Shown here piece by piece: positions 13,500 to 27,907 of a stretch of DNA of 64,000 nt. The translations under genes and the position numbers were made by a program. Under the pieces are notes generated by a model, which saw only the letters and a list, made by a program, of their open reading frames with translations, was not told the origin of the DNA and did not search any database. Location of the stretch: positions 1,426,001-1,490,000 of the forward strand of contig CANMWO010000001.1 of NCBI GenBank assembly GCA_947501695.1, in the 5' to 3' direction. The stretch is from an uncultured Sphingomonadaceae bacterium (GTDB lineage Bacteria > Pseudomonadota > Alphaproteobacteria > Sphingomonadales > Sphingomonadaceae). Position 1 is the stretch's first letter. Every line of letters begins with the position of its first letter.

Positions 13500-15656
13500 A
13501 TGACAACGCGCGTTCTCATTGTCGATGACCGGCCAACGAATCTCAGGATTTATGCCCAGTTTGTAACCATCATGGGGGAGAAATACTCTTCCGTGACATT
13601 TGCTGATCCCGTTGAAGCCCTAGAATGGCTCCGGAATAACCGCGCTGAACTGCTCGTGGTAGACTATCGGATGCCGCAAATGAACGGTGCGGAATTTATC
13701 AGAAAAGTCCGCAAGATGTCTACTTGCAGTGACGTGCCAGCGATTGTGATCACAGCGCATCAGGATCGCGAATGTCGTTTGTCTGCGCTGGATGCCGGCG
13801 CAACCGACTTCCTGCAAAGTCCGGTATCCCATGTAGAATTCTGCAAGCGCGCCACGTCGCTTTTGACGAAAAACGAAAAAAGCGTCAATTTGAGAAAGCG
13901 CGCATCCGAGATTGAACGGAAACATGCGGCTATATCTGACGCTGTGGATCAAGAAGCTCCTGCAAAAAAAAGCATGCTGGAACAGATCATCGATACTATA
14001 CCGATCATGATCAACGCGACCGATCGTTCCGGTCGATGCCTGTTCACCAACGCCTATCAATCCGCTCTTTTCGACAAGACGCCGGATCAGATGGTTGGCA
14101 AAGATTTTGGCGAATTACTGGGACCGGAACTCGCACAAAATTCGGAACGTAGAAATAGCAGCGTGCTCAAAACGGAACAACCAATCCCCCACTATGAAGA
14201 AAAGTTCACCAGTGACGGCGTTGAGCTTATCTTCCACTGTAACAAATCCCCGCTATTGAATCACAATGGTGAAACCATTGGTGTATTGACGACGGCGGTC
14301 GATATTACGGCCCGTAAATTCGCTGAAGAACATCGTACGCATCTTGCTTTGCATGACATGCTGACGGGGCTACCCAATCGTGCACTGTTGGCCGAAAAGG
14401 TGCGAAAAGCCATCGATACTTGTGCAAAAACCGGCCAGGAAGCGGCGCTGTTGCTGCTTGATCTCGATCGATTCAAAGTGATTAATGATACCCGCGGTCA
14501 CCACAGCGGCGACACATTGCTGCGGGAAGTGGCTGACCGACTGGTCGAGATGATTGGTCCAGAAGATTTTGCAGCCCGTATTGGTGGCGATGAATTTGCC
14601 ATCATATTGGGTAATGTGAGCGGCGCGGATGCCATCAACTCACGCTGTACCAAAATATTAAAAGCCATAAATCAGCCTTATTCGATTAGTGGTATAGAGC
14701 AGGTCATTGGTGCGAGTATTGGCGTGAGCTTGATACCAACAGATGGCAATGAATATGAAGAACTGCTGCGCCTTGCCGATCTCGCAATGTATGATGCGAA
14801 GGCCAATGGCCGCAATTGCCATCGTTTCTTCTCAGAAGGCATGAACCAAATAGCCCAAGCAGATGCTGTGCTAGAAATAGAACTACGCGATGCGCTAAGC
14901 CAAAATCAATTTGCCTTAGAATATCAGCCAATTGTTGACGCAAAGACTTTAAACTATGTCGGACTGGAAGCATTGATCCGCTGGGATCATCCCACCCGTG
15001 GGCGCTTGCTACCAGTACATTTCATTAGGGTCGCCGATGACACAGGCATTATGGATAGCTTGGGGAAATGGGTCATTGCCGACGTTTGCAAACAAATTCG
15101 GCAATTTGCGGATGAAGGCATCGAACTTCCGCGCGTAGCGATAAACGTATCACCTCGCCAGTTCCAGAATCAGAATGTCTGTGAAGAGATATTGAAAAAT
15201 ATCGAGAAAAACGAAATTGACCCATCCAGAATTGTTGTTGAGATCACCGAAGAATTGCTGCTGGATAATAACGATCATGTGCGCCAGACTTTGAATCGCC
15301 TGCGCGATACCGGTGTGGGCATCTCGATCGATGATTTTGGTACGGGCTATTCTTCGCTGCAATATCTTCGTGATCTGCCGGCCAATTGCCTGAAGATCGA
15401 CCGTACATTCATATCGCGTATTGAACATTCTGCTGCTGATCGTGCCATTATCGGCACGATCTCACATCTGGCCCACGCACTCGACATGCGAGTGATTGCC
15501 GAGGGTGTGGAGAATGATGCCCAGCTTGAACTGTTGCAGGTTTCAGGCGTGGACGAAATTCAAGGATTTAAAATTGCCCGGCCCCAGCGGGTAGATGACT
15601 TACCAAAGCTGTTTAGCACGCCGCAAAAGCATGCATCCAACGTGGCGAAAGGCTAA
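13500..15656 (+). CDS. Receiver-PAS-GGDEF-EAL cyclic-di-GMP regulator of the Rpf locus
   Basis: A 718-residue response regulator. Residues 1-125 are a receiver with acidic pocket Asp9/Asp10 and phospho-acceptor Asp55 (VVDYRMP). The usual conserved Lys before the last Pro is replaced by Ser107 (FLQSPV). A PAS domain covers about 158-275, then a GGDEF domain with an intact RIGGDEFA motif, then an EAL domain with GLEALIRW, INVS, ITEE, DDFGTGYSS, LKID and AEGVEN all present. Both enzymatic halves therefore look able to work. The ATG at 13500 has no visible Shine-Dalgarno sequence and may be leaderless. The rpfC-like kinase gene starts only 5 bp after its stop, so the two are very likely one operon and a cognate pair. 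It occupies the role that RpfG (receiver-HD-GYP) has in Xanthomonas. Confidence 0.9.
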   Translation: MTTRVLIVDDRPTNLRIYAQFVTIMGEKYSSVTFADPVEALEWLRNNRAELLVVDYRMPQMNGAEFIRKVRKMSTCSDVPAIVITAHQDRECRLSALDAGATDFLQSPVSHVEFCKRATSLLTKNEKSVNLRKRASEIERKHAAISDAVDQEAPAKKSMLEQIIDTIPIMINATDRSGRCLFTNAYQSALFDKTPDQMVGKDFGELLGPELAQNSERRNSSVLKTEQPIPHYEEKFTSDGVELIFHCNKSPLLNHNGETIGVLTTAVDITARKFAEEHRTHLALHDMLTGLPNRALLAEKVRKAIDTCAKTGQEAALLLLDLDRFKVINDTRGHHSGDTLLREVADRLVEMIGPEDFAARIGGDEFAIILGNVSGADAINSRCTKILKAINQPYSISGIEQVIGASIGVSLIPTDGNEYEELLRLADLAMYDAKANGRNCHRFFSEGMNQIAQADAVLEIELRDALSQNQFALEYQPIVDAKTLNYVGLEALIRWDHPTRGRLLPVHFIRVADDTGIMDSLGKWVIADVCKQIRQFADEGIELPRVAINVSPRQFQNQNVCEEILKNIEKNEIDPSRIVVEITEELLLDNNDHVRQTLNRLRDTGVGISIDDFGTGYSSLQYLRDLPANCLKIDRTFISRIEHSAADRAIIGTISHLAHALDMRVIAEGVENDAQLELLQVSGVDEIQGFKIARPQRVDDLPKLFSTPQKHASNVAKG

Positions 15657-15661
15657 GCAGG

Positions 15662-18244
15662 ATGCCAATATTCAATCCGCTTAAACGGCGCCAAAAGAAT
15701 AAGCTTAACAGTGCACACCATCATCATCACAATCATCGTCATCACCATGGCGTAGCTGCGCGCGGCCGCAATCGGGAACGCGAAATGATCACAAACCGAT
15801 TGGTTTTGATCGTCATAACTTTGTCGATATCGCTTTTTCTCAACGCAACACCCGACGTTATATTTGGATTGCAGCTTCACCTGATGGCTAGCCTGGCAAT
15901 TTTGGTCGCCTTTCGATTGAATCCCGAACGTAGCAATGCTCGACTTACCGCAGGACTGATTACCGATTTCGGTGTCTGTACCTACCTATTCGATATAGGC
16001 GGTGGAGCTGTAGCGGCTCTCTACCCCTTATATCTATGGGTGATATTGGGTTACGGCTTCCGCTTTGGCATCAAATGGCTTGCTATCGCTGCTACAATGG
16101 CAACTCTGTCATTTGGCTGGACGGTTTTTAGTGTTCCATTCTGGCAACAAAACGTGTCCCTGTCATCGGGGCTACTTTTCGGCCTAATCATAATTCCTGC
16201 TTATTGCTCAACTTTGATTAAAAAAATATCCAAAGCCACGAAAGAAGCAGAAGAAGCAAACAAAGCAAAAAGCTTGTTCTTGGCGAGCATCAGTCATGAA
16301 TTGCGGACCCCGCTCAATGCTATCATTGGGTATGGTACGCACTTGCTGGATATGAAACTTCCGGAAGCGCAACAACAAATGGTGGGGACCAGTGTTTCTG
16401 CGGGTCAGCATCTCCTGCACCTAATCAATCAGCTATTAAGTTTTGCACGATCAGACACTCAGGAAGAACTGCCAGAGCCAAAAACATTTAGCATTGTGGA
16501 TGTACTTACCGAAGTGCGCGACATCATGCAGTTGGCGGCAAATGAAAAAGATCTGATCATCCACTTGCAGGCCGAAGCGATGAGTGATCAACTTGTTGAC
16601 GGGCAACTGGAATATATCCGAAACATATTAATCAACCTGACCAGCAACGCCGTGAAATTCACAGAATCTGGCGCCATCACATTAAAGTGCGGGATTGATA
16701 CCAACGCCGATATGCCACTGCTTTGGTGTTCCGTCACAGATACTGGGCCTGGTATAGCAGCCGATGCCCATGAGAAAATTTTCGGGGTTTTCCAGCAAGC
16801 TGACGAGAGTGTCATGGACAATTTTGGAGGAACCGGCCTTGGGCTTGCGATTTGTGAAAAACTGGCCATACAAATGGGTGGCCGGATTGGTCTGGATAGC
16901 GAATTAGGAGAAGGCAGTACATTTACCCTGTCATGTCCGATTGCTTTCTCAGAAGATATTCAAACCGAGTCAGAGCAGGATAACCTCCGAATTCTATCGC
17001 TTGGCTTTGGATTATCTGCCCCCAAAATAAAAGGCGATGAAGCCGGTGGCGTAAAGATAGACCATATCCAGTGCTTGGCTACTGACAAGCTAGAAACAAT
17101 CCTCAAAAACCGGTCACTTCATTCTTATGATCTGGCTTTGGTCGATGAAGTGATAGCGGAACTGTATAAAGATGACTCCGCATTCTGGAATATTTTTCAA
17201 GAAGCCAATCTACCTCCAGTATTGCTATCCAATGATAACAGCAAAAGTCTGGACGATATAAAATTACGTGCTGCTTTTGCTTCGGTCTTACCCGCGTCGC
17301 CAGACTTTAACACGGTTCGTAGCGTTATCCAGATCGGGTGCTCATTCAATCGTACCAGTAGAAAGGCGGAGGATGATCCCAACCGAATTGTTCGTAACGA
17401 CGTTTCCCTCGACATTCTGATCGCAGATGACAACCGCACAAATCAGATGGTTTTACAGACCATACTTGTCAATGCTGGTCATAAAGTCGTTGCCGTTTCG
17501 GACGGAGAACTAGCGTTGGATGAACTCGAAAAATATTCCTTTGATATTGTATTTCTCGACGTCAACATGCCGAACATTGGCGGTATCGAATGTTGTAAAT
17601 TATGGCGTCAGATTGAGGGTCCTCGCAATCATGTGCCAATCATCGGTCTAACCGCCGACTCTACACCGGAAACCGAGAAAAAATGTCTTGATGCGGGCAT
17701 GGACCTTCGCCTTACCAAACCTATTGAAGCCGGCATTCTACTGGACACCGTCGCTGAACAAACGGGTAATTTTCTCGAAGCAGATACAAACCAAACAGTC
17801 AGCGAAGCCAGCGATCCATTCAATGTTGTCCGGAGCATCGGAACCAAAGCAGCCGAACAAGAAGAGCCACCTATCGACGACGTTCAAATGGAGTATCTAA
17901 AATCCATTGGCGACGAATCTTTTATCCAATCGATCATCGGTGCATATATTGAGGATACGGTGGAAATAATGAACGCGTTTGCTCAATCTGTTGAGCAATC
18001 AAATGTTGATGATTTCCGCTTCCAAGCACACGCTTTTAAAAGCGGAGCGAATAATGTTGGTGCGAAAAAACTCGCACAAATGTGTGGCCATCTTGAAGTT
18101 CTGACAGAAGCGGAATTTATCGAAAAGCGGTTTGACTATCTCGAAGAAATAAAGCGAGAAATAGCTAGGATAACCGACTTTTTAAGCAACCCACCAAGCG
18201 ACAAACCGACTGTTATGGATGATGGCTTCAGCGCTGCGGGTTAA
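15662..18244 (+). CDS. rpfC: RpfC-like hybrid sensor histidine kinase with Hpt domain
   Basis: An 860-residue membrane kinase whose domain order equals RpfC. An N-terminal cytoplasmic segment has PLKRR at 6-10, then 9 His in residues 19-29. About five membrane segments lie between 44 and 186, including PLYLWVILGYGFRFG at 122-136. HisKA has phospho-His212 (ASISHELRTPLN). The ATPase has an N box at 321-334, DTGPGI at 360-365 and GGTGLGLAI at 389-397. A receiver follows with Asp633 (FLDVNMP) and Lys686, and an Hpt domain with His790 (QAHAFKSGANNVGA). I keep the 15662 start because the LKRR motif resembles the RpfC N-terminus; an alternative ATG at 15785 would remove the His-rich segment. The gene ends in a 4-bp tail-to-tail overlap with rpfF, as in Xanthomonas. 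The expected ligand is a DSF-type fatty acid. Confidence 0.88.
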   Translation: MPIFNPLKRRQKNKLNSAHHHHHNHRHHHGVAARGRNREREMITNRLVLIVITLSISLFLNATPDVIFGLQLHLMASLAILVAFRLNPERSNARLTAGLITDFGVCTYLFDIGGGAVAALYPLYLWVILGYGFRFGIKWLAIAATMATLSFGWTVFSVPFWQQNVSLSSGLLFGLIIIPAYCSTLIKKISKATKEAEEANKAKSLFLASISHELRTPLNAIIGYGTHLLDMKLPEAQQQMVGTSVSAGQHLLHLINQLLSFARSDTQEELPEPKTFSIVDVLTEVRDIMQLAANEKDLIIHLQAEAMSDQLVDGQLEYIRNILINLTSNAVKFTESGAITLKCGIDTNADMPLLWCSVTDTGPGIAADAHEKIFGVFQQADESVMDNFGGTGLGLAICEKLAIQMGGRIGLDSELGEGSTFTLSCPIAFSEDIQTESEQDNLRILSLGFGLSAPKIKGDEAGGVKIDHIQCLATDKLETILKNRSLHSYDLALVDEVIAELYKDDSAFWNIFQEANLPPVLLSNDNSKSLDDIKLRAAFASVLPASPDFNTVRSVIQIGCSFNRTSRKAEDDPNRIVRNDVSLDILIADDNRTNQMVLQTILVNAGHKVVAVSDGELALDELEKYSFDIVFLDVNMPNIGGIECCKLWRQIEGPRNHVPIIGLTADSTPETEKKCLDAGMDLRLTKPIEAGILLDTVAEQTGNFLEADTNQTVSEASDPFNVVRSIGTKAAEQEEPPIDDVQMEYLKSIGDESFIQSIIGAYIEDTVEIMNAFAQSVEQSNVDDFRFQAHAFKSGANNVGAKKLAQMCGHLEVLTEAEFIEKRFDYLEEIKREIARITDFLSNPPSDKPTVMDDGFSAAG

Positions 18245-19194
18245 ACGGCCTGAAGAGAACGTTCCATCCGGCGCTGTTGAGCGTTGGCCAAGCGTTCCAT
18301 TTTGCGAACATCCGCATCCTCCAAGTGGATTGCGGTTTCCGCCCACATGTCAGTGATTTCAAGCAGTTCATCTATTGTTACCGGGTTCGATAGACGTCGA
18401 GCTTTGTAAACTGCACGCTCGGCATGAAAGCGCTTACGGTTTTGCTTGGTATATTCGACAATTGCCTCTTCGCCCTTGCCGTCCTCAGCAAGGATATCCA
18501 CGACGCCCATTTCATAAAGCTCCTCGGCCGTGAACAATTTGCCTTCCAATATGAACCGTTCCGTCTCGCGGCGACTAAGGCGCTGCCGAAGATAACTATA
18601 AGCACCCATGCCAGGGAATAGATTGAATAGAATCTCCGGCAATCCCAATCTTGCGCTTTTTTCTGCTACCAACAGATCGAAGGCCAGAGCATGTTCAAAA
18701 CCGCCACCCAGTGCATCGCCCTGGACCAACGCCATGGTAATGATCGGCGCACCAAAGCCCGTGCTATTGGCATGCTGCATATGGACACAAGTGCGGGCGT
18801 ATTTCTTTAATGCGCCCAGATCACGTCGTCTGATACAATCGGCAAAATGTTTCAGGTCGCCGCCGAGATTATAGATTCCTGGAGTATGTGATCCACAAAC
18901 AAAATATCGCAAGGGATCCGCAGCTTTGGCAGCGCCAGCTCCATAATTCATCTTAACCCAATCCTGTACGAGCTGGATTTCGTCACCCAATGCGTATGTG
19001 TAACTGGGACGCGATTTCTGATTCATATAACACCAGAAAATTTCATCCGATTTATCGAACCGCAAATCAATTTCATTAAATTTCTGTTGGAGTATATCTT
19101 GGCCAAAGCCATGTTTCGCAATAATCAATGATTCCGTTTCATCAAGGATCAGATCACCCTCAACATCATTTACCGCTTGGCTTCTTAAATCCAT
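18241..19194 (-). CDS. rpfF: DSF synthase RpfF (crotonase superfamily)
   Basis: A 317-residue crotonase-fold enzyme expected to dehydrate 3-hydroxyacyl-ACP to the cis-2 isomer and release the free fatty acid signal by thioesterase activity. Both Glu residues known to be needed in Xanthomonas RpfF (E141 and E161) have counterparts with the same 20-residue spacing: Glu167 (GGGFEHALAFD) and Glu187 (GLPEILFNLFPGMGAYS). The latter stretch is diagnostic of RpfF over ordinary enoyl-CoA hydratases. I chose the ATG at 19194 because GGAG lies about nine bases upstream; the open frame could extend to 19293 but that region has no family similarity that I can see. The gene converges on the rpfC-like gene. 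Confidence 0.9.
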   Translation of the reverse strand: MDLRSQAVNDVEGDLILDETESLIIAKHGFGQDILQQKFNEIDLRFDKSDEIFWCYMNQKSRPSYTYALGDEIQLVQDWVKMNYGAGAAKAADPLRYFVCGSHTPGIYNLGGDLKHFADCIRRRDLGALKKYARTCVHMQHANSTGFGAPIITMALVQGDALGGGFEHALAFDLLVAEKSARLGLPEILFNLFPGMGAYSYLRQRLSRRETERFILEGKLFTAEELYEMGVVDILAEDGKGEEAIVEYTKQNRKRFHAERAVYKARRLSNPVTIDELLEITDMWAETAIHLEDADVRKMERLANAQQRRMERSLQAV

Positions 19195-19216
19195 ATATAC
19201 TCTCCACATAATCGGG

Positions 19217-19240
19217 GTTACGTCGAAACTCTGGCGTAAC
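19217..19240. repeat. Inverted repeat in the rpfF leader
   Basis: GTTACG (19217-19222) and CGTAAC (19235-19240) are perfect 6-bp arms with a 12-bp spacer. The repeat lies 23-46 bp upstream of the chosen rpfF start and could be an operator or form a hairpin in the leader. There is no U-tract, so it is unlikely to be a terminator. Function is inferred from position only. Confidence 0.35.
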
Positions 19241-19435
19241 AATTTCCGAAGTGCTTGGGAGATATTTTTATGACACGCCCCAAAAAGAAGCAAGTAAAAG
19301 CAACATGATTAAAGAAAGTCCAGAATGGATGGTTTTATTTCTTCATCTTTGGCGGGACTTAATAGCCGATAGCGCGTTGTAAAATCTGGTAAATTAAGGG
19401 TTAACGATATGATTCGGGGATGTCGGTTAACTAAC

Positions 19436-19536: not shown

Positions 19537-20538
19537 TCATCCCGCATCGGCTTCAGAACCAGCTGACGCGCTAATCAAACCCCGATAAGCCCGCGCAGCA
19601 GATCGTGTGCCTTTCGTAACTTCATACACATCTTCCGCAATCGGCATGGCGACATTATATTTTTTGGCCAGCGCTATAACCGTTGGCGCGCTTTTTACAC
19701 CCTCAGCAACCATCAGCATCTGTTCGATAATGTCATCGATTTTACGACCTTTTCCAAGTTCCACGCCAACATGCCTGTTTCTGCTTAGCGGGCTGGTACA
19801 GGTCGCAATCATATCTCCCATTCCCGTCAAACCGGAAAAAGTCTCAGCGCGCCCTCCCATAGCTACGCCTAAGCGCGTAATTTCAGCTAATCCGCGTGTA
19901 ATCAATGCCGAGCGCGTATTGTCCCCTGCCCCAAGCCCATCACCCATGCCAACCGCAATTGCGATGATGTTTTTAAGAACACCACCAAGCTCGCAGCCCA
20001 GCAAATCCGTATTCGTGTAAACACGGAACAATCCGGAATGGAAAAGTTGTTGAAGCTGTTTGACGATAATTTCGTCTTCCATGGAGATCACACTGGCTGC
20101 CGCCTGACCCGCCATGATTTCACGTGCCAGATTTGGGCCAGTCAACACGCCTACCGGATGACCGGGAAGCACATCTTCGATAACCTCGGTCATTCGTTTA
20201 CCGGTAGAAAGTTCCAGACCTTTGGTTAGACTGATCACCGGAACCCAGGGCCGCAAATAGGACCTAGCTTCTTCCAGTACACCGCGAAAGTTGTTGGACG
20301 GGATTCCCATAACAAGCACATCGGCATCTGAGACAGCCTCCCCGATATCACCAGTAGCCTCTAATGCTTCCGGCAGATCTGCATCGGGCAGATATTTGCT
20401 GTTACGATGATTCTCGTTAATGTCATTAACCGTGTCGCTGTCTCTTGCCCAGATTTTGATCGGTGCATTGCGCGATACCAGCGAAGCTACTGTTGTTCCC
20501 CAGGAACCGCCACCCAATAGTCCAACGCGCAATTTCAT
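19537..20538 (-). CDS. gpsA: Glycerol-3-phosphate dehydrogenase [NAD(P)+]
   Basis: Reduces dihydroxyacetone phosphate to sn-glycerol-3-phosphate, the backbone of glycerolipids. The 333 residues open with the dinucleotide-binding GLLGGGSWGTTVA (7-19). The substrate domain has the GVLKNIIAIAVGMGDGLGAGDN segment, with the catalytic Lys in VLKN, and the ITRGLAEITRLG segment. A GGGGAAAAGCT stretch precedes the ATG. It is the last gene on the minus strand after the neutral-lipid operon, 69 bp from it, and supplies the acceptor that PlsB there needs. This makes co-expression likely but not proven. Confidence 0.96.
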   Translation of the reverse strand: MKLRVGLLGGGSWGTTVASLVSRNAPIKIWARDSDTVNDINENHRNSKYLPDADLPEALEATGDIGEAVSDADVLVMGIPSNNFRGVLEEARSYLRPWVPVISLTKGLELSTGKRMTEVIEDVLPGHPVGVLTGPNLAREIMAGQAAASVISMEDEIIVKQLQQLFHSGLFRVYTNTDLLGCELGGVLKNIIAIAVGMGDGLGAGDNTRSALITRGLAEITRLGVAMGGRAETFSGLTGMGDMIATCTSPLSRNRHVGVELGKGRKIDDIIEQMLMVAEGVKSAPTVIALAKKYNVAMPIAEDVYEVTKGTRSAARAYRGLISASAGSEADAG

Positions 20539-20607
20539 AGCTTTTCCCCAATTTTTTTCGCGACTCCTCTTTTTGAGAAGTTCTATGCGACCAAACTGGC
20601 TGTAATT

Positions 20608-21537
20608 TTAGTGTTTTGCAAGAAATGCCCGGTGTGCAGCAGCGGTTTCTTTGGGTTTTTCGATCATCGGGATATGCCCGGTCTCTTCAAAAATCACCGC
20701 TTCGCTATTCGGGATCCCTTCATCCAGCACCGCAACACAGCTGACATCAATCAAACGGTCATGGCGTCCCCAGATAATTAAACTCGGCGCCGTCACCTCA
20801 CCGAGGCGATCGTTAAGGGGATGATTGATACCTGCACCGGCAATTTGCCAGAATATTTTGTCGAGAACCTCTCTATGAGCATCGGCCTCTGCGAAGAATA
20901 TTTTTTTGAAGTTTTTGGGCATCGGCACCGGTTTATAGGAGACGAACGCCATGAGGCGATCTACGTCTGAAACATTGCTCAACGCCAACGAATTTTCGCC
21001 TTTTTCAGCAGCGACAGCTAATTCGCTCTTGTCATCACCAACAACGCCGGCGTTGTTAAACAAGGTGAGCGACGAAACTTTATCCGCATATTCCATTGCA
21101 AATTGCAGGGCGATAAAGCCGCCCATGCTATTGCCACCAATATGGCATTTGGGAATATTCATAGCATCCAAAAATGCGCTCAATCGATGAACCTGTGAGG
21201 CAATATCATAGTCGCGGTTAAGAGAGCGGTCATTTTCCCCAAAACCTGGCAAATCCGGCGCAATCAAGCGATGATGTTTCGTGATATGTGGTGCATATAC
21301 CGACCAGTTATCCTTGTCGCCGCCAAACCCATGCAACAAAACAACCGGCACACCATTTCCTCGTCCACCCTCCAAGTAAGGCCACAGATCGTCACCAACC
21401 TTGACAGATTTTTGCCGCATCCCGCCACGCAAACGAAGCAGAGCGGTCATCAGGTCATAAAGTGCTTTGGGAAGGACAAAATAGCTGACCAAAAGAGCAA
21501 TTATTATTGCGCCCAAAAAATATAAAACGATCATCAT
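20608..21537 (-). CDS. Membrane-anchored alpha/beta hydrolase
   Basis: A 309-residue alpha/beta-hydrolase with one N-terminal membrane segment (residues 4-22). The oxyanion HGFGG is at 69-73, nucleophile Ser137 in GGNSMGG, an acid in WGRHDRLI and the His in EETGHIPMIEKP near the C-terminus. The overall look is that of a lipase/esterase of the MhpC or lipase 1 type. A GGGGGGA ribosome binding site precedes the start. It follows the monoacylglycerol-lipase-like gene by 31 bp in the same direction. A role in hydrolysing acyl esters of the storage lipid is inferred from context. Confidence 0.85.
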   Translation of the reverse strand: MMIVLYFLGAIIIALLVSYFVLPKALYDLMTALLRLRGGMRQKSVKVGDDLWPYLEGGRGNGVPVVLLHGFGGDKDNWSVYAPHITKHHRLIAPDLPGFGENDRSLNRDYDIASQVHRLSAFLDAMNIPKCHIGGNSMGGFIALQFAMEYADKVSSLTLFNNAGVVGDDKSELAVAAEKGENSLALSNVSDVDRLMAFVSYKPVPMPKNFKKIFFAEADAHREVLDKIFWQIAGAGINHPLNDRLGEVTAPSLIIWGRHDRLIDVSCVAVLDEGIPNSEAVIFEETGHIPMIEKPKETAAAHRAFLAKH

Positions 21538-21568
21538 TGCAGAATCCCCCCAATTCGCATTGCCGTTG

Positions 21569-22423
21569 CTATTCGGCTATTATACGTTCGATCCAGTCCG
21601 TCATATCCGTCAGCACCGCATCTTTTTCTGGCTCGTTGAAAATCTCGTGAAACAACCCAGGATAGATTTTCAGCATTTTTTCTTTCGAACCGATATGCTC
21701 GTTCAGAAAAATAGATCCCTCCGGCGCTGTGAGACTATCTTCTTCACCATGTAGCAGCAGCATTGGTAAGGTAATGCGGGCAGCTTGGTTTTGAACAGCT
21801 TCCATATTGCCCATCATCTCAGCTGCTAATCGCGCGCTGATCTTGGTGCCAGACACCAACGGATCAGCGAGATATTCAGCCACGACTTTTGGGTCGCGAC
21901 TAACGCCACTGGCTTCTAGGCCCAACACGCCCATTCTTGGAGCAACCTTGGAAAGGAACCTACTCACCCCCTTCATGAAAGAAGACGGCTCCTCGGTCGC
22001 TTTGATCGCCGGACCGGATAAGACTGCAGCAGCAAAATTGGACTGATTTTCAAGCAAATATGATGCGCCGATCAGACCACCAAGACTATGACCAACCAAT
22101 ATCAGTGGTAACGCCTGCTGTTCTGCTGGCATCTGACCAAGCAATGCGTCCAGACCGTCGTGATAGACAGAAAATTCAGGTACAAAGCCATTCTCTCCGT
22201 CCGATTTCCCATGCCCCCAATGATCCAATGTATGGACGGCAAAGCCATGATTTACGCAATGCTCAGCGAAATAGGCATAGCGACCGCTATGTTCATCATA
22301 GCCGTGCACCAATATGATGTTCGCCTTGGGCGCATCGTCCGGTGTCCAGCGTTGGCAATAAAGATTCGCACCTGCAGCAGCGGATGGGGCTGCTAGCACC
22401 AAGGCTCCTTCTTCGTGCCTCAA
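21569..22423 (-). CDS. Monoacylglycerol-lipase-like alpha/beta hydrolase
   Basis: A 284-residue hydrolase of the serine aminopeptidase S33 / Hydrolase_4 type, the family of monoacylglycerol lipases and lysophospholipases. HGYDEHSGRY (40-49) is the classic HG-x-x-EHSGRY motif of that family, with nucleophile Ser113 in GHSLGG and a late His in YPGLFHEIFNEP. The start is TTG at 22423, overlapping the TGA of the upstream patatin gene (TTGA), with AAGGA seven bases before it. The overlap implies coupled translation with the patatin lipase. Last-step release of glycerol from monoacylglycerol is a reasonable inference. Confidence 0.87.
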   Translation of the reverse strand: MRHEEGALVLAAPSAAAGANLYCQRWTPDDAPKANIILVHGYDEHSGRYAYFAEHCVNHGFAVHTLDHWGHGKSDGENGFVPEFSVYHDGLDALLGQMPAEQQALPLILVGHSLGGLIGASYLLENQSNFAAAVLSGPAIKATEEPSSFMKGVSRFLSKVAPRMGVLGLEASGVSRDPKVVAEYLADPLVSGTKISARLAAEMMGNMEAVQNQAARITLPMLLLHGEEDSLTAPEGSIFLNEHIGSKEKMLKIYPGLFHEIFNEPEKDAVLTDMTDWIERIIAE

Positions 22424-23898
22424 CCGATTTTCCTTTGCATCGCCGCGACATGATCATGCGCTAGTTCATTTTCATATTCGAACAATATCCGATCCAATGT
22501 CTGGCTGATCTTCGTTTGGGTACGGACCATTTCAATTTTTGGCCATGTAGTACGCTCACCCAACTGGATAAGTTCACCAATTTCCTCCACCGAGAGATCG
22601 CTTAGGATTTTCGCCGGACTCCAGAACATCGTCGGACGTATGATATTAATATCACCGGTATAATCCTGATTGATCACAGACAACGTCATATTCGCCATGC
22701 TGTTCAGTCGCGGGAAATAAGACAGCGGCTTTTGCATTATCTCAACATTGGCATTGAGCCAGGCCTTCATTGTCGAGGTAGTTGCATTTCTGATCGCGGA
22801 AATCGGAGTTCGCTGTTGTTTCACATCGGTTGCAAAGGGCGTAATCAGTGGATTGGCCTGGCTGACAATATGATGATTAACCCCATAAAGTCGCCCAAGC
22901 CGTTTGGCTGGCAGATCGTGTGTTACGGAACCATCCACCCATTTGCGATTAGGCAAATAAGGTTTGCGCTCTCCGGTATGGTCCTTGGCGGCCAGCGTCA
23001 CTGGCGGATAAACGCCTGGCACAGCGCAAGAGGCCATCACCGCTTCGCGAATATAGACATTAGGAGAAGCAATGGCGTTTAAAAGACGCGATGTCTGATG
23101 CTTTTCCGCCGGTGCAATCGACACATTCAAGTGTCTTCCGGTTAACTCATAAGCTTCCTGAAAAGTAAGATCTGGAATCATATTACTGATCCGAGCTCGG
23201 ATCTCGTCGATTTTTAGCCGCTTCGTGCCACCCAATATTCCAAAACCGGTCTGTGCGACAATGTCATCCGCACCGTCGGTCACAAGATTTTCAGGGTTAA
23301 AAAATGGAGGGATTTCATCATCTACATGGGTACTGATCAACGCACCGACGACCGAACCGCCACTGGATCCCGACATGATGTGCGGCAGCAGGCCTTCAGA
23401 CCATAGAGACTTAACAACACCCATATGAAAATAGAGAAAAGCGCCGGAACCGCTCATCAAAAACGCAGAACGGCCATAGCAGTGCTGTGCCCGACGGAAG
23501 AAATCGAGTTTTTCTTCGAACGGAATATCGTCAACCTTGTCGCTTGCCAGATATTCCAGCGAGTTGACGATAGCATCGACATAATCCTGGATCAGCTGCT
23601 TGGTACCAAATTTGGCTTTCTGATGCAGACGATCATTACCCATGCCGTCCATATTGCCATGGATACCTTCGTTCAGTGCATAGAGCAGGCCGGCATTATC
23701 TTGGGTTTTCCAGAGCTTTGACAGCCGTTTCAGGCGGCGGCGGATAGAGAGATTATCAAAATGCTTGCTATCGTCAGATGCCTTCCACTTGTCTACTCCA
23801 GTGGAGCGATCGTGCGCAGCGGCGGCATCGGACCAGTCGGAATAATTTTCCGCCTGGCTCATAGCCTTTTCCATCTTCAAAGTGGTATTCAAAATCAT
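22420..23898 (-). CDS. Patatin-like phospholipase/triacylglycerol lipase with DUF3336 domain
   Basis: A 492-residue lipase. The N-terminal part (about 50-145) is a DUF3336 domain, which in eukaryotes is found in the triacylglycerol lipases TGL3/4/5 and SDP1. The patatin core has the oxyanion motif SGSGAF (149-154), nucleophile Ser179 in SGSSGGS and the dyad Asp in KWVDGSVTHDLP. Three in-frame ATGs lie near the start (23898, 23874, 23862); I keep the first because none has a clearly better ribosome binding site. It is 86 bp from WS/DGAT and overlaps the next hydrolase. Mobilising the triacylglycerol made by the neighbours is the simplest reading. Confidence 0.88.
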   Translation of the reverse strand: MILNTTLKMEKAMSQAENYSDWSDAAAAHDRSTGVDKWKASDDSKHFDNLSIRRRLKRLSKLWKTQDNAGLLYALNEGIHGNMDGMGNDRLHQKAKFGTKQLIQDYVDAIVNSLEYLASDKVDDIPFEEKLDFFRRAQHCYGRSAFLMSGSGAFLYFHMGVVKSLWSEGLLPHIMSGSSGGSVVGALISTHVDDEIPPFFNPENLVTDGADDIVAQTGFGILGGTKRLKIDEIRARISNMIPDLTFQEAYELTGRHLNVSIAPAEKHQTSRLLNAIASPNVYIREAVMASCAVPGVYPPVTLAAKDHTGERKPYLPNRKWVDGSVTHDLPAKRLGRLYGVNHHIVSQANPLITPFATDVKQQRTPISAIRNATTSTMKAWLNANVEIMQKPLSYFPRLNSMANMTLSVINQDYTGDINIIRPTMFWSPAKILSDLSVEEIGELIQLGERTTWPKIEMVRTQTKISQTLDRILFEYENELAHDHVAAMQRKIG

Positions 23899-23984
23899 GT
23901 TTTACTCGCTTACTTTGAGACCGAATACACGCATTGCTGGGGAAAGACACCCGTTAACGGGAAACTTAGGTAGTTATCCACTAC

Positions 23985-25535
23985 TTATTTTGCCTTATTC
24001 GGTTGCGCTCTTCTTGGTGCCTTGGATACCCGACGGTACATGACCGAGGCATCTTTGGGTTGCGCGGCTTTTTTGATTGGAGTTTTCGTAATTTTTGCTT
24101 TTGCATTGCGCTTGCCAACCGCTGGCTTGGCATCCCGCAACTGGACAAAGGCTGATTCAATACATTCTCGAAAAAACTCAATATCCGGCATTATTTTTCT
24201 GTCGGTTGTGATCGCAAAGGACATCGTGCCATTGTAGCTGGGCGTCGCGATAAACAATCCCATACCGTTGCCTAGCGGCGCCATACCATATTGATGGGTC
24301 AGTTTAGCACCGTTCATATACATGGGCACTTGCGGCCCCGGCACGTTGGAAATAAACACATTACTCATCTTGGGCGCGAAACGTTCACTTGTCAGGATTT
24401 TGGCCACTCCGGCCATAGTTGCGCCGGGTATATGTTGAGTCAGATCCGTCATGATCCGTGCACTCAGGCCGGATTTAGCCGCCTTTGTCTCTTGAGTAGT
24501 ATTGCGAATAGCCTCCAATCGTTCCAATGGATTGGCAATATTGGTCCAAAGCTTAACGGTCATTGCGGTAATCTTGTTACCAGGTGTATTTTCCTGACCA
24601 TCCCGCTTCCGGGCATTTACGGGAGCGACCGCAACCAGCGTTTCTTTTGGTAATTCTTTGTGTTTCATCAAATATTTACGCAGCGCACCACTGCAAACAG
24701 TCAGCACAACATCGTTGATCGTAGCACCTTCCACTTTGGTGCGCATGGCTTTGAGTTCATTCAAATCGAAACTGACAGCATCGAACATCTTATGTGGAGA
24801 AACATTACCGTTAAAGCGGGTTTCAGGAACAGTTAGGCCACCACCCTCCCCATCACCGGACATGTTTTTCTGCGCCGCATCCCACAGGGTAGGAGTCAAT
24901 TTCAGCACAGCGTTGGCCAATTTGACAGGCGACGACAAGTTGCTCGAAACGGCGCGATTCATGACATCCGAAGACGATGGCACATCGCCATAATCCCAAT
25001 CCGATGGCGGGACCTCAATCAACGGCTTACCTTTATTGTCCATATCACCGAGCGCTGTGAAAAAATAGGCAGCCGATGCACCATCAATTGCGGAGTGATG
25101 AACCCGCGTCATAATTGCATAACTGCCTTTGCCATAGCCTGCGACCTTATCCAGTCCTTCGACCACATACATATCCCAGAGCGGCCGATTCATATCCATG
25201 GGCTTGCTGAAATGGCGCGCCACATGGATACAAAACTGTCGCCAATCGCCCGGTTCCGGTAATCTCCCGTGCGAAATATGGGCTTCTATGTCGAAATGCT
25301 GATCTTCAACCCAATAAGGGTGATCAATATCAAAAGGCAGGCGGTAAAGCTTTCGCTTAAACACTGGAGAAATGTGCAACCTACTTCTGACATGTTCTAT
25401 AATATCCTTGAAGCGTACCTTCTTGGTAGGCGCAGTTGAAGGATCATAGACATAGACTGCCATAACATGGGTCAGGTTCTCCGCTGTCTGGATGTAGAGA
25501 AACTGGGCGTCTTGGGCACTAAGCTGATGCAACAT
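23985..25535 (-). CDS. Wax ester synthase / diacylglycerol acyltransferase (WS/DGAT)
   Basis: Final enzyme of bacterial neutral-lipid synthesis: it transfers an acyl chain from acyl-CoA to diacylglycerol or a fatty alcohol. The 516 residues include the active-site HHSAIDG motif (His146, His147, Asp151), the NDVVLTVCSGALRKYL segment and the NVPGP motif. I chose the ATG at 25535 since GAGGAG lies six bases upstream and the family begins with LSAQDAQFLY; a TTG at 25565 also opens the frame. The last 50 or so residues (24137 down to 23988) are Lys/Ala/Arg-rich and go beyond the usual C-terminus. It is encoded directly after PlsB. Confidence 0.93.
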   Translation of the reverse strand: MLHQLSAQDAQFLYIQTAENLTHVMAVYVYDPSTAPTKKVRFKDIIEHVRSRLHISPVFKRKLYRLPFDIDHPYWVEDQHFDIEAHISHGRLPEPGDWRQFCIHVARHFSKPMDMNRPLWDMYVVEGLDKVAGYGKGSYAIMTRVHHSAIDGASAAYFFTALGDMDNKGKPLIEVPPSDWDYGDVPSSSDVMNRAVSSNLSSPVKLANAVLKLTPTLWDAAQKNMSGDGEGGGLTVPETRFNGNVSPHKMFDAVSFDLNELKAMRTKVEGATINDVVLTVCSGALRKYLMKHKELPKETLVAVAPVNARKRDGQENTPGNKITAMTVKLWTNIANPLERLEAIRNTTQETKAAKSGLSARIMTDLTQHIPGATMAGVAKILTSERFAPKMSNVFISNVPGPQVPMYMNGAKLTHQYGMAPLGNGMGLFIATPSYNGTMSFAITTDRKIMPDIEFFRECIESAFVQLRDAKPAVGKRNAKAKITKTPIKKAAQPKDASVMYRRVSKAPRRAQPNKAK

Positions 25536-25561
25536 TTGCGGCTCCTCTAAATCGGATGATC

Positions 25562-27907
25562 TCAATCAAAAATTTTGTCGGCGAGGCTCAGAACTTCCAG
25601 GCGAGATTTTTCCATCCGCCGTGACAAGGCCCGGAATTTGCGTAACAGAGCTTTGCGTTTAACGATGGTCTCGTCGGTTGTTTCACCGGTCAAACCCTGA
25701 CTGGCTGCCATTTTAAAACCATTTTCGAACAAAATCTTACCAATCGAGGCCTCGCTGGTAATCCTTCGCAGCAAATAAGCCTGATGCCCCTCTTTCAGGG
25801 CATCTTCCACGCATTGCTTTTTATCGATTGCCTGCCCTGGCTCCAACCGTGACAGTATGTCTAGCACCACTGTATAGGATTCCACGAATGGCAGAAAAAC
25901 GGCATGACCAATCAGAGGTTGAAACCGGTTGGTTAGGCTTTTGAGTAGAACGCCCCCCTTATCCAGCTTCATTTCCCAGTCTGGGCAAGCGCGGGTCAAT
26001 TCAGCTTCCAGGTTTTTCCGATATTCCTCCTTTGGAGGATAGAAAAATTCAAATTTGAACAGATCACGCAAACGTTCGGTTTCTGCCCAAAACACATCCT
26101 TGGCGGCATTATCCTTGTCTTCTCTTGCTTTTAATAGCGATAGTTCAATGATCGCCTTATCAAGAAAATGGTGAATGATAGAATTGCGGTAGTAGCTCGC
26201 TAGCGGATGTTTTTCCGGCTGAATCGCGTAAACGGTGCTTGATCCCTGGTCGTAACGCACGAACAAGCCGCTATTGACTAGCGTATCGACCACCTTCTGA
26301 ATACCCTCCAGGTTTTGCGTGACCAAATCATCGCTGAATCGAATTTTGCGCTCTTGCGCCCATTCTACAAAGAAATTAATTACCGCGCGCAATTCATCTG
26401 CTGTCATGGCTCGTGGCGCAGTGCCCAGCAGACTCAGGCACATTAACGAGGTCAGTGTCAGCGGCGTCGCTCGATTAGCCTCCACTGCAACTTCAAAGGC
26501 GATTTTAGACAAACCTATGCGATCATTAGGCTCAGGCGCACGTTTAACAACGACAGGTTCGCCAAAATCGACATAAACTTTACCCATCGGTTCACGCAAG
26601 CTGCGGAGATAACCGATAAACCAACTCAGCGATTCAGCTTTCTTGGCTCGCCCGGTTTGCTCACTGGCATATTCCTCGACATCGCGGATTAAGTCGAAGC
26701 TGGTCACCACCGGAATGATATGGACGTTTTCGATGTCGTTCACATTGGCGCTATCCATGACATATTTCAGCAAACCATAGCGCGGAGGCATAAGCTTTCC
26801 GAGCCGCGAACGCGTACCTTCAAAAGCCCAAGTCATAGGAAAGCGTTTTTCCAGCAAATAGCTAACATAATGACGCAACACGAGCTTATAGACCGGATTA
26901 TTCTCAAAACTGCGACGAATAAAAATCGTTCCTGCCCGGCGCAGAACAAAGCCAAGGCCGAAGAAATCGAGATTAATGCCGCCAAAGACATGCACCATCG
27001 GTAGATCATTTTGATAAGCCAGATCGGTAGGTGTCACACCATCAATATAGGTTTTATGGGTAAACAGCAGCAACGTTGGGTGATCCCGCATCGTCTTGCG
27101 CAACCGGGCTAGCTCACTCTTTTTGAACACAACCTCATCTTCATAGCCTTGCGACAACATGAAACGGTCGAGCTTTGCCTTCATATCTATGAAGAAAGCA
27201 CTCGGCCGGGCGATCAACTCCTTCATATATTTGCTGGCTTCGTCGTATAATACCGTCTCTGGCTTATCGAGATCGATTGCCAGTTCAGTCATCGCGGCAC
27301 GAAATTTCGAATTTGTGCGCAAGCCATCAGCAACAAACCGTGGTACCTTGTAACGGCGTCCACGAAGGCCACGCTCTTCAATATCGAGAACAAGACCAGC
27401 CTGACGCACGACAAAACCCGCAAATTCGTGTTCGTCATCGCTTTGAACTTCGACTGCATTTTGCTGCTCAAAGCGTTGTCTGAGGTCGCTTATTGTCGCT
27501 GGTTGCCCAATCAGACAATGCGCCCGGCGTTTATTGCGGAGTAGAATCGTACGCGCCCTAAAGCTGCCCGGCGTCCGGGGATCACCAAACAAGGCGTGAC
27601 GCTTTTTGAGCGCCCGACTCTTTTCAAAATTAGGTATTCGCCATGCGATACGCACGGGTATCACAAGTGTATCTGACTCGGCTTCCAGTTTTCGGGTGAG
27701 CTCTTTCAACCGCAAACGCGCGCGTTCATCCGATATGGGAAGACTAACCCAGTTGATTTCCTGACCCGGCCCTCCTTCGGCAAGGGAGGTATGAAGCCAG
27801 TCCAACAAGTAACGACGTTCAACACGGTTACGCGCATCGATGACAAATAGTTTCGGCCCCTGCGTCAGCAGAGGAACCGCTTTTGCTATTGCCGTCGATT
27901 CATCCAT
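25562..27907 (-). CDS. plsB: Glycerol-3-phosphate 1-O-acyltransferase (PlsB type)
   Basis: Transfers an acyl chain to the sn-1 position of glycerol-3-phosphate. The 781 residues match the large PlsB family. The acyltransferase motif I is FTHKTYIDG (His284, Asp289), motif III is FEGTRSRLG and motif IV is HIIPVVTSFD. Many alphaproteobacteria rely on the PlsX/PlsY route, so a PlsB in a storage-lipid operon suggests a dedicated supply from acyl-CoA. It lies between the HAD-PlsC gene (9-bp gap) and the WS/DGAT gene. A GTGAGG ribosome binding site precedes the ATG. Confidence 0.92.
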   Translation of the reverse strand: MDESTAIAKAVPLLTQGPKLFVIDARNRVERRYLLDWLHTSLAEGGPGQEINWVSLPISDERARLRLKELTRKLEAESDTLVIPVRIAWRIPNFEKSRALKKRHALFGDPRTPGSFRARTILLRNKRRAHCLIGQPATISDLRQRFEQQNAVEVQSDDEHEFAGFVVRQAGLVLDIEERGLRGRRYKVPRFVADGLRTNSKFRAAMTELAIDLDKPETVLYDEASKYMKELIARPSAFFIDMKAKLDRFMLSQGYEDEVVFKKSELARLRKTMRDHPTLLLFTHKTYIDGVTPTDLAYQNDLPMVHVFGGINLDFFGLGFVLRRAGTIFIRRSFENNPVYKLVLRHYVSYLLEKRFPMTWAFEGTRSRLGKLMPPRYGLLKYVMDSANVNDIENVHIIPVVTSFDLIRDVEEYASEQTGRAKKAESLSWFIGYLRSLREPMGKVYVDFGEPVVVKRAPEPNDRIGLSKIAFEVAVEANRATPLTLTSLMCLSLLGTAPRAMTADELRAVINFFVEWAQERKIRFSDDLVTQNLEGIQKVVDTLVNSGLFVRYDQGSSTVYAIQPEKHPLASYYRNSIIHHFLDKAIIELSLLKAREDKDNAAKDVFWAETERLRDLFKFEFFYPPKEEYRKNLEAELTRACPDWEMKLDKGGVLLKSLTNRFQPLIGHAVFLPFVESYTVVLDILSRLEPGQAIDKKQCVEDALKEGHQAYLLRRITSEASIGKILFENGFKMAASQGLTGETTDETIVKRKALLRKFRALSRRMEKSRLEVLSLADKIFD

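Follow-up and report, generated by a model that had tools for sequence, protein, structure and literature searches.

Introduction

Two core pathways for perception of the diffusible signal factor (DSF), RpfC-RpfG and RpfR, are distinguished in the accessible part of PMC4504480, which also gives the layout in Xanthomonas: rpfF and rpfC are convergent, with rpfG beside rpfC. An rpfFCG set with an HD-GYP output is reported for Leptospirillum (PMC8357829, in extract), and KEGG-based RpfC-RpfG pairs are listed for alpha- and betaproteobacteria (PMC8895600, in extract). Here, we analysed an rpf locus in a 64,000-nucleotide stretch of DNA (the window) from an uncultured Sphingomonadaceae bacterium, whose closest named relatives are Sphingorhabdus and Parasphingorhabdus. 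In this locus, the gene in the rpfG position codes for a response regulator with receiver (REC), PAS, GGDEF and EAL domains. We consider it fairly probable that the locus is of the Rpf/DSF type, that the RpfG receiver was kept while HD-GYP was replaced by PAS-GGDEF-EAL, and that the resulting circuit would run from a phosphorelay to cyclic-di-GMP.

Results

Organization of the rpf Locus

The three genes reported here by an initial annotation of the window were recovered at the same coordinates by their open reading frames and Pfam domains.

13500..15656, + strand: REC-PAS-GGDEF-EAL response regulator, 718 amino acids, in the rpfG position (Pfam, receiver tree, catalytic residues)
13500..13868, + strand: receiver region of the regulator, residues 1-123, with Pfam Response_reg at 5-117 (Pfam, alignment)
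13974..14318, + strand: PAS domain of the regulator, residues 159-273 (Pfam)
14346..14816, + strand: GGDEF domain of the regulator, residues 283-439 (Pfam, residue check)
14880..15584, + strand: EAL domain of the regulator, residues 461-695, putative phosphodiesterase (Pfam, residue check)
15662..18244, + strand: RpfC-type hybrid histidine kinase, 860 amino acids (Pfam, PDB match, alignment)
18241..19194, - strand: RpfF-type crotonase, 317 amino acids (start site, Glu pair, PDB match, tree)

Like RpfF-RpfC-RpfG of Xanthomonas, the locus combines RpfF and RpfC types in convergent order with a regulator gene upstream of rpfC, and it shares the His-Asp-His-Asp relay residues and the receiver lineage of the regulator. 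It differs in having PAS-GGDEF-EAL instead of HD-GYP as output, a serine in place of the conserved receiver lysine, changes in four of five DSF-docking residues, and neither rpfB nor rpfH beside the locus. RpfF-RpfR of Burkholderia and Cronobacter resembles it in encoding RpfF beside a PAS-GGDEF-EAL protein and in passing a fatty-acid signal to cyclic-di-GMP, as the window locus presumably would. Unlike RpfF-RpfR, the window locus has a receiver and a membrane kinase, and its GGDEF-EAL part stands apart from the sampled proteins of RpfR architecture.

The regulator gene, annotated from the outset as REC-PAS-GGDEF-EAL, was confirmed by Pfam and by the open reading frames of the window, and ends 5 bp upstream of the kinase gene on the same strand. 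The kinase and rpfF genes are convergent, and their frame ends overlap by 4 bp. The open frame of rpfF (18241-19293, - strand) has a TTG start and contains an ATG at 19194 that gives a protein of 317 residues. Since this ATG is preceded by GGAGAG and two relatives (L018 and L024) have RpfF frames of exactly 317 amino acids, the start is best set at 19194.

RpfF belongs to Pfam family ECH_1 (enoyl-CoA hydratase; crotonase fold). Both catalytic glutamates of the initial annotation, Glu167 and Glu187, were found by script in the 317-residue numbering, and were kept in 130/131 (one gap) and 131/131 RpfF frames, respectively. The protein passed the NCBIfam crotonase family PRK08788 with 347 bits (cut-off 177). 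Its four best PDB chains (7zq7, 3m6m, 6dgn, and 5fus; 154-194 bits) are RpfF or RpfF-type, two of them deposited as crotonase/enoyl-CoA hydratase, and the next crotonase in the PDB scored 53 bits. In a tree of 117 rows, from which 19 loci (near-duplicates or cut frames) had been left out, 112 RpfF rows separated from five crotonases of the same genome with support of 100/99. This split, together with the PDB scores, ruled out an ordinary enoyl-CoA hydratase, the grouping by which the annotation had proposed to judge the protein. No second RpfF was found in the genome, where the next best of nine matches scored 45.5 bits.

The kinase carries Pfam domains HisKA (residues 202-266), HATPase (318-426), Response_reg (585-697), and Hpt (759-837), preceded by five merged hydrophobic segments within residues 41-189 (Kyte-Doolittle hydropathy, no dedicated predictor). 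Pfam and hydropathy thus agree with the RpfC domain order assigned earlier, with about five helices, HisKA, ATPase, receiver, and Hpt. His212, Asp633, Lys686, and the Hpt residue His790 were invariant in 95/95 aligned RpfC-type kinases, and the solved RpfC receiver 3m6m_D, matched at 81.7 bits, was the best-scoring receiver-only PDB chain. On these domains and residues, the kinase is classified as RpfC-type, with its predicted His-Asp-His relay intact. The next best match to it in the genome was a single 892-residue frame (102.8 bits for the kinase core and 59.9 bits for the receiver), whose match does not cover the input domain.

Genome-wide searches gave 17 matches for GGDEF, 11 for EAL and none for HD_5 (HD-GYP), PF13487 being the only profile used. 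The annotated absence of RpfG was supported by this result and by the GGDEF-EAL output of the regulator.

Distribution and Gene Arrangement

RpfF, searched as a protein query at E <= 1e-40, was found in 28/196 genomes of the order, and its family model had matches in 24/385 genomes of the class and 62/398 of the phylum, with the own genome included in each count. The rpfF gene itself is a minority trait.

Gene arrangement was tallied over 129 loci, obtained from 60 wide neighbourhoods, 70 named loci, and the window after removal of the duplicates L211 and L212. Close relatives are over-represented among the named loci because the window's RpfF served as query; L031 and L161, which have identical RpfF domains and may be one genome, were both kept, and loci on cut contigs or with a split kinase frame (e.g., L015, L035, and L059) were counted as lacking RpfC. 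A convergent RpfC with a REC-PAS-GGDEF-EAL regulator, that is, all three genes ordered and oriented as in the window, was present in 46/129 loci, the window included. In 14 loci a convergent RpfC was accompanied by a REC-PAS-(PAS-)HisKA regulator, and two more had this output type in another orientation. Convergent RpfC with REC-HD-GYP (RpfG) occurred in 17 loci. The regulator was cut, absent or elsewhere in 11 loci with convergent RpfC, RpfC had another orientation in three, and 36 had no RpfC within 2.5 kb.

The 46 GGDEF-EAL and 16 kinase-type loci were all alphaproteobacterial (Sphingomonadales, Hyphomicrobiales, one Acetobacteraceae, Pelagibius, and other members of the class), and no alphaproteobacterial locus was among the 17 REC-HD-GYP loci of the tally. 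The GGDEF-EAL arrangement is also present in a sphingomonad isolate, Parasphingorhabdus marina DSM 22363 (L025). The pairs listed in PMC8895600 contrast with the absence of rpf-linked HD-GYP from the alphaproteobacterial loci read here; the accessible extract of that paper describes no other output. This survey of rpfF neighbours, which the initial annotation had called for, indicated that the exchange of output recurs in Alphaproteobacteria and added a third output type, a histidine kinase. Chance co-location of the three genes was ruled out by their presence in 46/129 loci while the flanks vary (gpsA in 23/52 loci compared).

The kinase-type regulators have the architecture REC-PAS-HisKA-HATPase, sometimes with two PAS domains (L181-L183, L185-L189, L192-L196, and L053), and in these loci the target of the RpfC-type kinase is apparently another kinase. 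Such loci, e.g., that of Pelagibius sp. Alg239-R121 (L053), share gene order, receiver subclade, the serine in place of lysine, and a related PAS domain with the window. They differ in their histidine kinase output and in a docking motif that is mostly intact (Gln22 in 16/17).

Descent of the Regulator

The receiver alone, searched against 120 genomes of the phylum, yielded 30 loci that were kept, including the window and one ortholog. The other 28 comprised 20 REC-HD-GYP (three of them rpf-linked), three REC-REC-GGDEF, and five in which the profiles used found no output domain. In a receiver tree of 172 rows, regulators adjacent to rpfF formed one starred clade (97/87) of 80 rows, with 43 GGDEF-EAL, 19 kinase, 17 HD-GYP, and one other output. 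The alphaproteobacterial receivers were a starred subclade (98/98, 63 rows) nested among RpfG receivers. The tree covers 135 columns only, which leaves its deeper forks weak; it left out 12 loci (near-duplicates, repeats, and close relatives), L221, L222, and short fragments, and RpfC receivers were thinned to 15/86. Because the alphaproteobacterial rpfF-linked receivers nest among those of RpfG, the phylogeny places the receiver of the window regulator as a descendant of the RpfG receiver lineage whose output was exchanged.

With the three best PAS domains of kinase-type regulators, the window PAS domain reached 68-71 bits. Its score was 35 bits with the GGDEF-EAL regulator of L200 and 30.5 bits with the only unrelated PAS-GGDEF-EAL match (L214), the other match in that group, L021, being a cut ortholog. 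Since the highest scores were with kinase-type PAS domains, this comparison, made on a small set, points to a common REC-PAS that predates the last exchange of output. In a tree of GGDEF-EAL modules from 20 of 53 regulators, the sphingomonad modules (100/100 clade) stood apart from other alphaproteobacterial modules, and forcing the two together was not rejected (p-AU, approximately unbiased test, 0.466). The module tree is thus compatible with one as well as several acquisitions of the GGDEF-EAL output. Starred branches of the RpfF tree force at least three changes of output label, and the best quick kinase tree had four (rows without a read regulator left out).

Discussion

Proposed Mechanism and Evidence Against It

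In the favoured interpretation, an RpfG receiver coupled to a new output, RpfF would make a fatty acid of medium chain length with cis-2 unsaturation, or a close relative of one, which the kinase would sense through its membrane domain. Phosphate would then pass from His212 via Asp633 and His790 to Asp55 of the regulator. Phosphorylation would switch the PAS-GGDEF-EAL module, most likely by increasing the phosphodiesterase activity of EAL, while GGDEF would act as a GTP-binding regulator or as a second activity, and the signal would lower cyclic-di-GMP as in Xanthomonas, with a different enzyme. Because the replaced module is a phosphodiesterase and the EAL site is conserved, the net effect is probably breakdown of cyclic-di-GMP; a signal-driven shift in the balance of its synthesis and breakdown, as initially suggested, is possible.

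Several observations weigh against this interpretation. RpfF scored 223 bits with the NCBI RpfF equivalog model, below the cut-off of 550 bits. In the kinase, only Glu19 is kept of R15, D17, S18, E19, and Q22, which are reported to be essential for DSF sensing by RpfC of X. campestris (PMC5391125, in extract). The conserved lysine of the regulator's receiver is replaced by Ser107. The neighbour of rpfF is gpsA and not rpfB, for which the remainder of the genome was not searched. Finally, gammaproteobacterial REC-PAS-GGDEF-EAL regulators near rpfF (L072 and L077) fell outside the receiver clade.

The equivalog model is narrow: its cut-off was also missed by 59 of the 62 phylum genomes with a match, and was reached by three of the 398 sampled. 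In L072 and L077, both from MAGs, a distinct REC-PAS-GGDEF-EAL gene lies on the rpfF strand, with an RpfC-type kinase on the other side; these regulators were apparently recruited beside rpfF independently. In view of the four changed residues for DSF sensing, the missing receiver lysine, and the equivalog score, neither the description of the locus as a complete DSF locus nor an established phosphotransfer route was supported as worded. The accompanying proposal of an undescribed Rpf variant stood in so far as no description of the arrangement was found in the titles and abstracts of the open-licence literature searched, which excludes subscription journals, where one may be in print.

A broader interpretation, held tentatively and with less than even confidence, is that Alphaproteobacteria have a separate DSF-type branch, in which the RpfG receiver lineage, having lost its conserved lysine, served as platform for exchange of HD-GYP for PAS-kinase and PAS-GGDEF-EAL outputs and the docking site changed in most kinases of the GGDEF-EAL branch. 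If so, the branch would use a different signal molecule and activate its receiver without the canonical lysine switch.

Alternative Interpretations

Somewhat doubtful, yet the most probable of the alternatives, is a changed ligand: the kinase would respond to a relative of DSF that carries another head group, to a different lipid, or to a cue from membrane or metal, and RpfF would be the synthase of that ligand or only the binding partner of the kinase. The reported DSF docking site is a short juxtamembrane segment of RpfC (PMC5391125, in extract), which in the Xanthomonas-type kinase L201 reads R.DSE..Q. In the window kinase, an arginine lies one column off R15. After removal of nine loci, position 22 was Gln in only 1/42 kinases paired with GGDEF-EAL regulators (L200), the other 41 having Met, Ile, Val, or Thr, as compared with 16/17 kinase-type-paired and 14/14 HD-GYP-paired kinases with Gln, and Ser18 was mostly lost (Ser in 7/42). 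In addition, the kinase N-terminus is rich in His (HHHHHNHRHHHG, window 15662-15790), with nine in the first 45 residues and 4-13 in five near relatives, none being present in L040 or L044; it could bind metal if it is periplasmic as in RpfC. Against a changed ligand, Glu19 was kept in 42/42 of the GGDEF-EAL-paired kinases. Moreover, position 22 changed only twice on a quick kinase tree that left out 23 loci, and its change is therefore inseparable from lineage and may be a lineage mark. These two changes give too few independent pairs to support loss of Gln22 as an adaptation to the new output.

By description, the kinase can also be set beside Pseudomonas aeruginosa PA1396, which is not known to be an rpfF locus. 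PA1396 is reported to sense DSF by an RpfC-related five-helix input domain, for which helices IV and V are required but most of the N-terminal segment is dispensable (PMC6536496, in extract). Because PA1396 works via these helices, loss of docking residues in the window kinase would be compatible with DSF sensing, a further argument against the changed-ligand interpretation.

It is unlikely, at a lower grade than a changed ligand, that the module is mainly a diguanylate cyclase or a true two-way switch, by which the signal would raise or toggle cyclic-di-GMP; compared with RpfC-RpfG, the circuit would then have the reverse sign or a richer one. Residues were compared over 53 regulators, including the duplicates L211 and L212 and the gammaproteobacterial L072 and L077. 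The GGDEF motif is intact in the window, with Asp321, Asn329, and Asp330, and was kept in 52-53/53, and its metal-binding Asp in 53/53. The window GGDEF domain has no RxxD inhibitory site (Gly353), which would permit an uninhibited cyclase, and among solved GGDEF-EAL proteins the 'Motility regulator' 4rnh is closest to it. Against a cyclase, the EAL residues are equally well conserved: all those checked are present in the window and in 53/53 regulators, except the Ala of EAL (51/53). The two catalytic motifs noted in the initial annotation are thus both intact. Also contrary to a cyclase, RpfG, which was replaced, acts via a phosphodiesterase HD-GYP domain (PMC8357829, in extract). The five best NCBIfam matches of the regulator were phosphodiesterases as well, though all far below their cut-offs.

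In receivers, the conserved lysine (K109 of CheY) contributes to activation. Its position was occupied by Ser in 49, Thr in two, and Arg in two of the 53 regulators. By output type, Ser was found in 41/45 GGDEF-EAL and 18/19 kinase-type receivers, and the 17 rpf-linked HD-GYP receivers (two of them identical duplicates) had Arg in seven and Lys in ten, in contrast to Lys in 16/16 other HD-GYP receivers. This pattern could be explained by a receiver that acts as docking domain, controlled by protein binding, and not as phosphorylation switch, e.g., with RpfF exchanged between the receivers of kinase and regulator, an alternative that we regard as quite improbable. Partner swapping of RpfF between receivers has been proposed in Xylella (PMC4504480, in extract). 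However, Asp9, Asp10, the phospho-acceptor Asp55, and Thr85 were invariant in 53/53 regulators and the Hpt His in 95/95 kinases, and because all are kept, a dead receiver is unlikely.

An RpfR of the Burkholderia type joined to rpfC instead of an RpfG derivative would explain the common PAS-GGDEF-EAL and the position beside rpfF, but was rejected as very remote, since the receiver of the window protein falls in the RpfG clade and its module in the sphingomonad clade (100/100). Three PAS-GGDEF-EAL proteins of RpfR architecture encoded near rpfF, with no named RpfR among them, form a separate clade (100/100).

Neighbouring Genes and Other RpfF Loci

Upstream of rpfF on the same strand, a lipid cluster (window 19537-25565, - strand) comprises gpsA, two alpha/beta hydrolases, a patatin-type phospholipase, and a wax ester synthase/DGAT. 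The two hydrolases were each present, like gpsA, in 23/52 loci, all from close relatives. A second GGDEF-EAL protein lies in an 894-residue open frame about 15 kb from the rpf locus (window about 34412-35641; G000:C1:1460412-1461641 on the contig).

In other families of Sphingomonadales, RpfF is fused (630-688 amino acids) to a C-terminal Haem_oxygenas_2 domain (PF14518, 70-77 bits).

L164:6791-8854: RpfF-Haem_oxygenas_2 fusion (Pfam; best solved match 3dde)
L166:6107-7996: RpfF-Haem_oxygenas_2 fusion (Pfam; best solved match 3dde)

The RpfF frames of L165 and L167 are similar in length to these fusions. Haem_oxygenas_2 is an iron-enzyme fold family that includes the fatty-acid decarboxylase UndA, and the fused domain may modify the signal. 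L187 and L192 have long N-terminal RpfF extensions without Pfam match.

In two other sphingomonads (L170 and L171), a lone RpfF homologue adjoins an asparagine-synthase-type amidotransferase, which in L171 is part of an XrtA/PEP-CTERM set (TIGR03108, exosortase A, glycosyltransferase, and FemAB). No RpfC was present within the 15 kb read at L171. A role of these RpfF proteins among exopolysaccharide genes, and not in DSF sensing, is possible.

Implications

The rpf loci compared here combine the same synthase-kinase pair and a receiver of one descent with three outputs, and thereby constitute a natural experiment in how signalling can retain its specificity when the effector is changed. They raise the questions of whether exchange of HD-GYP for GGDEF-EAL keeps or reverses the sign of the response, and of whether a receiver that lacks the conserved lysine can be activated. 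If the proposed function is correct, the range of DSF-type signalling would come to include parts of the Alphaproteobacteria.

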